Of a stretch of DNA of 37,647 nt, positions 21,019 through 21,093 are shown one piece after another. Source of the DNA: a virus; the IMG/VR virus record IMGVR_UViG_3300042923_000804, positions 1 to 37,647 of that record, one strand, 5' to 3'. A program made the position numbers and the translations under genes. Under the pieces are notes generated by a model, which searched no databases, had not been told where the DNA came from, and worked only from the letters and a program-made list of their open reading frames with translations. Numbering within the stretch: position 1 is the stretch's first letter; every line of letters starts with the position of its first letter.

Positions 21019-21093
21019 GGCTGGTGGTAGAACTGGTCTTTTTTCATTGGTAGAAATGGAATAGAGAAGTTTATAGAACGGTGGTAGAACCGT
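21019..21093 (+). promoter_or_regulatory. Three tandem hairpins with identical GGTAGA loops, capsid mRNA leader
   Basis: Between protease and capsid genes, three hairpins carry the same hexaloop GGTAGA: 21019-21025/21032-21038 (7 bp with G-U pairs, then six Ts), 21042-21048/21055-21061 (7 bp, one G-U) and 21078-21082/21089-21093 (5 bp). The stems differ in sequence, so the loop is what is conserved. This looks like a set of RNA-protein binding sites or a translational control element for the capsid gene. The first hairpin with its T run could also act as a weak terminator. Confidence 0.65.

Follow-up and report, generated by a model that had tools for sequence, protein, structure and literature searches.

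A conserved three-hairpin RNA leader upstream of the major capsid gene in a phage family of gut bacteria

Results

The protease-capsid gap

The window, by which we mean the whole stretch of DNA analysed here (37,647 nucleotides, positions 1 to 37,647 of IMG/VR virus record IMGVR_UViG_3300042923_000804), belongs to a tailed dsDNA phage that carries an integrase gene, and its early region has three separate DNA methyltransferase-like genes (6051-6584, 8141-9121 and 9318-9809). In the head operon, the 111-nt gap between the stop codon of the prohead protease gene and the start of the major capsid protein (MCP) gene holds an array of three hairpins, with the following genes and features.

20428..21006, + strand, head maturation (prohead) protease gene (PHROG head maturation protease, E 1e-48)
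21002..21011, + strand, 5' arm of the closing helix P0 (TATAA + TTCTC), from the fold and from covariation over loop classes
21016..21041, + strand, hairpin P1, 10 bp, loop GGTAGA at 21026-21031, from sequence and fold (8 bp paired in 30/30 leaders)
21039..21044, + strand, T-run after P1, resembling an intrinsic terminator (five T columns invariant in 30 leaders)
21042..21061, + strand, hairpin P2, 7 bp, loop GGTAGA at 21049-21054, from sequence and fold (6 bp paired in 30/30 leaders)
21064..21075, + strand, 3' arm of P0 (GAGAA..TTATA), from the fold and covariation
21078..21093, + strand, hairpin P3, 5 bp, loop GGTAGA at 21083-21088, from sequence and fold (5 bp paired in 30/30 leaders)
21103..21110, + strand, Shine-Dalgarno sequence AAAGGAGG of the capsid gene
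21118..22359, + strand, MCP gene, HK97 fold (PF05065, E 1e-28; PHROG major head protein)

A sequence-only reading of this DNA had described three hairpins with an identical GGTAGA loop and differing stems directly 5' of the capsid gene, and both sequence and fold confirm this; each loop, a GGUAGA hexaloop in the RNA, is closed by T-A. That reading let the array begin at 21019, where the actual start is 21016 and that of P0 is 21002, and it recorded P1-P3 and missed both the closing helix and the T-run. P2 stacks directly on P1. Since the 5' arm of P0 lies over the protease stop codon (21004-21006) and the 3' arm comes after P2, P1 and P2 are set in a three-way junction with P3 outside. The Shine-Dalgarno sequence, 9 nt beyond the end of P3, is left unpaired by P1-P3.

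The terminator scan of the window gives one site, P1 with its T-run, where 0.1 are expected. As in an attenuator, P1 is a GC-containing hairpin followed by a T-run, and this T-run is present in nearly all loop types described below; no obvious competing antiterminator helix is seen in the folds inspected. The best promoter match within the leader is weak (9/12) and no commoner than in shuffles. A perfect -10 hexamer, TATAAT, is located at 21001-21006 in the 5' arm of P0, and likewise in most GGUANA leaders; the promoter scan finds no -35 to match it, and it is probably a by-product of the stop codon together with the P0 pairing.

The three-hairpin array is real and more than chance. The leader segment folds with z = -3.8, and only one of 200 shuffles is as stable. 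The GGTAGA hexamer itself occurs no more often in the window than expected (7 versus 9.6), and P1, P2 and P3 are the only hairpins with this loop anywhere in the window whose stem reaches 5 bp. A loop-agnostic search for three nearby hairpins with a common loop, covering the window and 80 related loci, returns the window array and one relative (L003) only, and 1.08 Mb of shuffled sequence returns none.

Relatives and distribution

Because the MCP query found no relative in IMG/VR, the terminase was used as query instead, which led to L003, with loops GGTATA, GGTATA and GGTAGA at the same site. Further relatives come from loop-pattern scans of IMG/VR with a stem filter, from a capsid-family search and from covariance-model searches of bacterial genomes. 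Overall, at least about 70 distinct relatives, both viral contigs and prophages of Clostridia and Bacilli, have the same architecture at the same place; the broad loop-pattern scans gave mostly coding tandem repeats, which the stem filter took out, and this census is a lower bound. The check named with the sequence-only reading, whether related phages have this loop ahead of their capsid genes, is thus borne out in dozens of contigs. A protease homologue is present in all 68 loci entered into trees, and the protease-capsid gap measures 13-44 nt without the leader and mostly about 93-196 nt with it, leaving aside one gap of 76 nt and a few longer ones.

Among the sequenced bacterial genomes searched, the carriers are Bacilli and uncultured members of a single Clostridia order. 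A class-wide draw of 391 genomes gives two matches only, both in genomes already known from that Clostridia order, and the covariance model finds essentially one site per carrier genome, bar weak extras. The array is missing from three weak matches of the model (L390, L402 and L404), which we attribute to chance. The leader is not found in the two phage records nearest to the window by MCP (39% and 28% identity), nor in the MCP relatives of other phages at about 40% identity.

Covariation and strand

We aligned 30 leaders of the commonest loop type, GGUANA. P1 (8 bp), P2 (6 bp) and P3 (5 bp) are paired in 30/30 at each position, in a set selected partly by the stems of P1 and P3 (at least 4-6 bp); the pairing of P2 was not used in this selection, and P2 thus gives the cleanest covariation evidence. 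The stem positions have up to five pair types each, with many compensatory changes, and the closing U-A of P2 is replaced by C-G in some leaders. Counted on the alignment, double-sided changes number 53; shuffles give 12.9 and slid controls 1-18. P0 shows covariation across every loop type (CTC/GAG, TTCC/GGAA, GCC/GGC, ACGA/TCGT, ACAGT/ACTGT, TTGC/GCAA), and with arms cut by hand, the mean pairing of its own arms beats that of swapped arms in 500/500 trials, none of the 500 swaps reaching the observed value. G-U pairs are frequent on the + strand, for example at position 3 of P1 (26/30) and of P3 (18/30). On the other strand these would be A-C mismatches, which marks the leader as a coding-strand RNA.

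The stems vary around a nearly invariant loop, and this + strand RNA element would thus be read by its loop sequence. Conserved loop, covarying stems and a position always upstream of the capsid gene agree with the claim of the sequence-only reading that such an array is the expected target of a sequence-specific RNA-binding factor. With covarying helices and a fixed place upstream of one gene, the element has the properties of a structured cis-regulatory RNA leader, and that it is a real, conserved RNA element is virtually certain.

Loop types

The loop is conserved within the GGUANA leaders and is not universal; some relatives have switched to another loop, usually in all three hairpins. The other loop types, occupying all or nearly all three hairpins of the same architecture, are the GGAN tetraloops GGAU/GGAC and GGAG, and GGAAU, UGGAAUG and GAGAG, and the covariance model trained on GGUANA leaders aligns end to end with most of them. 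For example, GGAG occurs three times in L399, L400, L344 and L349, TGGAATG three times in L334 and GAGAG three times in L430, and L401 has GAGAG, GTGAG and GAGAG. Mixed leaders are few: GGAG-GGTAGA-GGAG in L345 and L346, GGAG with GGUANA in L347, and GGAG with GGAAU in L006. They suggest that GGAN and GGUANA are able to serve one reader, so that the factor must tolerate both, or concerted switching is imperfect.

What the loop type follows

Changes between GGUANA and other loops number two on the protease tree, four on the portal tree and six on the MCP tree for the same 52 rows, these being quick trees with hand-assigned loop labels. At least four capsid lineages, about 20-40% identical, lie downstream of the same GGUAGA leader, and capsids 64-65% identical to that of the window stand behind GAGAG leaders (L401 and L430). 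In the GAGAG and GGAG phages, the HNH, TerS and TerL genes and the majority of the neck and tail genes have their closest relatives in the GGUANA phages, and the GAGAG pair is clearly set apart by portal, protease and capsid only. In the GGAG pair G189 and G073 the protease is far diverged, with a similarity of 0.39, versus 0.9 for TerL (G189) and 0.87 for the major tail protein. As for the hosts, one genus harbours two loop types (GGTAGA in G050, GGAG in G073 and G189), and the two GAGAG prophages are from different genera. Our analysis shows that the loop type is independent of both the MCP lineage and the host genus.

Eleven carriers were compared with the window: they keep the head and tail genes that surround the leader, and the gene most often replaced is that of the capsid. 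The capsid gene is swapped between strongly diverged lineages (window 21118-22359, L401, L393, L003, L185, L006 and L391), and the junction of the swap lies just 3' of the RNA leader, within the otherwise conserved head-tail module.

Discussion

A putative loop-reading factor

We propose that 21002-21093 would act as a cis-acting RNA leader of the capsid gene, with P0 enclosing P1 and P2, and P3 lying by the Shine-Dalgarno sequence. Each of the three loops may serve as a docking site of its own for a single sequence-specific RNA-binding factor that is probably an oligomer or present in several copies, which would explain why the loops are mostly identical. That the loops are kept while the stems drift, and are mostly switched together, would be best explained by one factor at three sites. 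Specificity follows the portal-protease-leader segment and neither the host nor the capsid; the factor is therefore probably carried by the phage, its specificity being inherited with that segment.

Binding of the factor would gate capsid synthesis from the late operon. The sequence-only reading had thought of translation or transcript stability; with its terminator-like form, P1 brings in attenuation of transcription as a further, third possibility, in which a terminator-form hairpin would separate the capsid gene, a high-copy product, from the low-copy head genes. It would be odd to place a terminator before the protein in greatest demand, unless that terminator is regulated. P3 offers another route, since binding beside the ribosome site may confer translational control. 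We infer the factor, its identity and the control of capsid expression from the pattern of conservation, and whether a putative loop-reading factor gates capsid expression by the stated mechanism is, in our judgement, evenly balanced.

A phage structural protein had been suggested as the binder. The capsid protein is unsupported in this role because the loop type does not follow the MCP lineage, and the protease tree fits best, the protease gene being adjacent to the leader. The co-inheritance of protease and portal may reflect linkage only, since both adjoin the leader. The prohead protease would be the best single candidate reader, an assignment which we consider doubtful. Slightly less doubtful, and still tentative, is the wider notion of an RNA-protein specificity module in the HK97-type head operon, in which an adjacent structural protein, prohead protease or portal, may read the three loops and set the capsid supply, the loop-reader pair switching specificity as capsids are swapped.

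Other explanations

The reader may also be cellular, an RNA-binding protein or ribonuclease of Clostridia and Bacilli other than CsrA, with the phage supplying the site only; the outcome would be attenuation, processing of the mRNA or shielding of the capsid mRNA at its 5' end. No early gene common to the leader carriers is found by BLAST or phmmer, hence no dedicated regulator is found, and the reader may be a cellular one; in the genomes searched, the leader is seen only in phages of Bacilli and of a single order of Clostridia, and GGAN occurs with GGUANA in one leader, as if one pocket took both. However, one host genus has different loop types and one loop type occurs in two host genera, and CsrA, the obvious binder of GGA loops, is missing from 17/17 carrier genomes, with positive controls. 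CsrA is thus rejected as the loop reader: the GGUAGA loops of the window have no GGA, which is found in the GGAN and GGAAU classes only. We regard a host factor as possible and on the whole unlikely.

A simpler arrangement would be a plain terminator with mRNA-stabilising hairpins, in which P1 ends part of the upstream transcript and P2, P3 and P0 protect the capsid mRNA, the loops being unread. The conservation of the terminator-like P1 and T-run in nearly all loop types fits it, as does the general knowledge that 5' hairpins are able to stabilise mRNA in Firmicutes, yet it explains neither a near-invariant loop on variable stems nor the joint change of all three loops between phages, and we hold it to be quite improbable.

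Autogenous control, with the capsid protein acting as the coat proteins of RNA phages do, is suggested by the leader lying directly upstream of the capsid gene and by the general knowledge that the assembling protein is multimeric, but the loop does not co-vary with the coat protein as in a coat-protein operator: the same GGUAGA leader precedes capsids with about 20% identity, the 64-65% identical capsids of the window and L401/L430 have different loops, the MCP tree needs six changes versus two for the protease tree, and leaderless phages have capsids about 40% identical to that of the window. Such control is very unlikely. A DNA element, with the inverted repeats as cruciforms or single-stranded hairpins, for example for a recombinase, would account for perfect repeats with a conserved centre, but G-U pairs frequent on one strand only, the fixed orientation and protease-capsid placement, and P0 pairing across two hairpins make it hardly credible.

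Comparison with known systems

A leader read by a phage-borne factor can be set beside several known systems. In the coat operator of MS2-type RNA phages, a hairpin with a specific loop upstream of or at the ribosome site of a phage gene is read by a phage protein. The leader here is alike in having a specific loop just ahead of the ribosome site of a phage gene. It differs in its phage, tailed with dsDNA as against an ssRNA phage, and in its make-up of three hairpins plus a closing helix as against one hairpin; moreover, the MS2 reader is the coat protein, which the loop here does not follow. In dsDNA phages, the gp43 and gp32 operators of T4 and RB69 are mRNA structures 5' of the start codon bound by phage proteins, and the gp43 hairpin lies about 40 bases upstream with conserved loop bases (PMC3014915). 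These are single operators of replication genes, however, without an identical-loop array, loop switching or a terminator-like hairpin. By analogy, the leader may work like the known phage mRNA operators (MS2 coat, T4 gp43), its membership among them being putative.

CsrA/RsmA arrays consist of several hairpins with GGA-type loops upstream of a ribosome site. They need GGA, whereas the GGUANA and GAGAG loops have none and the carrier hosts have no CsrA. T4 RegB reads GGAG/U sequences specifically (PMC3014915). Its sites are cut mostly in translation initiation regions, and its targets resemble the GGAN loop type, but GGUANA and GAGAG loops do not fit; no RegB-like gene turns up in the window proteins that were scanned. 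Lambda boxB, HK022 put and EAR are RNA hairpins with a defined loop or structure that control terminator read-through, boxB and put being located near promoters. In the LoaP/dfn system a hairpin RNA controls terminator read-through, LoaP reading UNCG tetraloops (PMC12691694). Unlike in all of these, the array here itself includes the terminator-like hairpin and sits inside a head operon.

Rfam 15 gives no match in the window at gathering score, and none at E up to 5 for 20900-21200. The element is not described in the main text of a survey of microbiome RNAs (PMC8040213) or of a 2010 motif survey (PMC2864571), and the searchable literature, which includes part of the motif papers, has nothing like a three-hairpin leader. 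The leader is a previously uncatalogued RNA structure of a phage family of gut bacteria, absent from Rfam.

To our knowledge, it is largely unexplained how tailed DNA phages make hundreds of capsid subunits but only a few portals and proteases from the same operon. For the capsid/portal/protease balance the leader offers a concrete, testable RNA control element, its natural loop types are a ready specificity-swap experiment, and it is a possible source of small orthogonal RNA-binding pairs.

Additional helices after P3

In some leaders (L003 at 4715-4737, L336 and L337) an extra hairpin follows P3; its loop has 8 nt (TAATTGTG/TAAATATG) and its stems covary (GGTTG/CAACC, GTTCG/CGGAC). In addition, the Bacilli-type leaders L388, L318, L326 and L006 have an extra covarying helix between P3 and the Shine-Dalgarno sequence, with the pairs AGACT/AGTCT, AGTCT/AGACT and GACT/AGTC.
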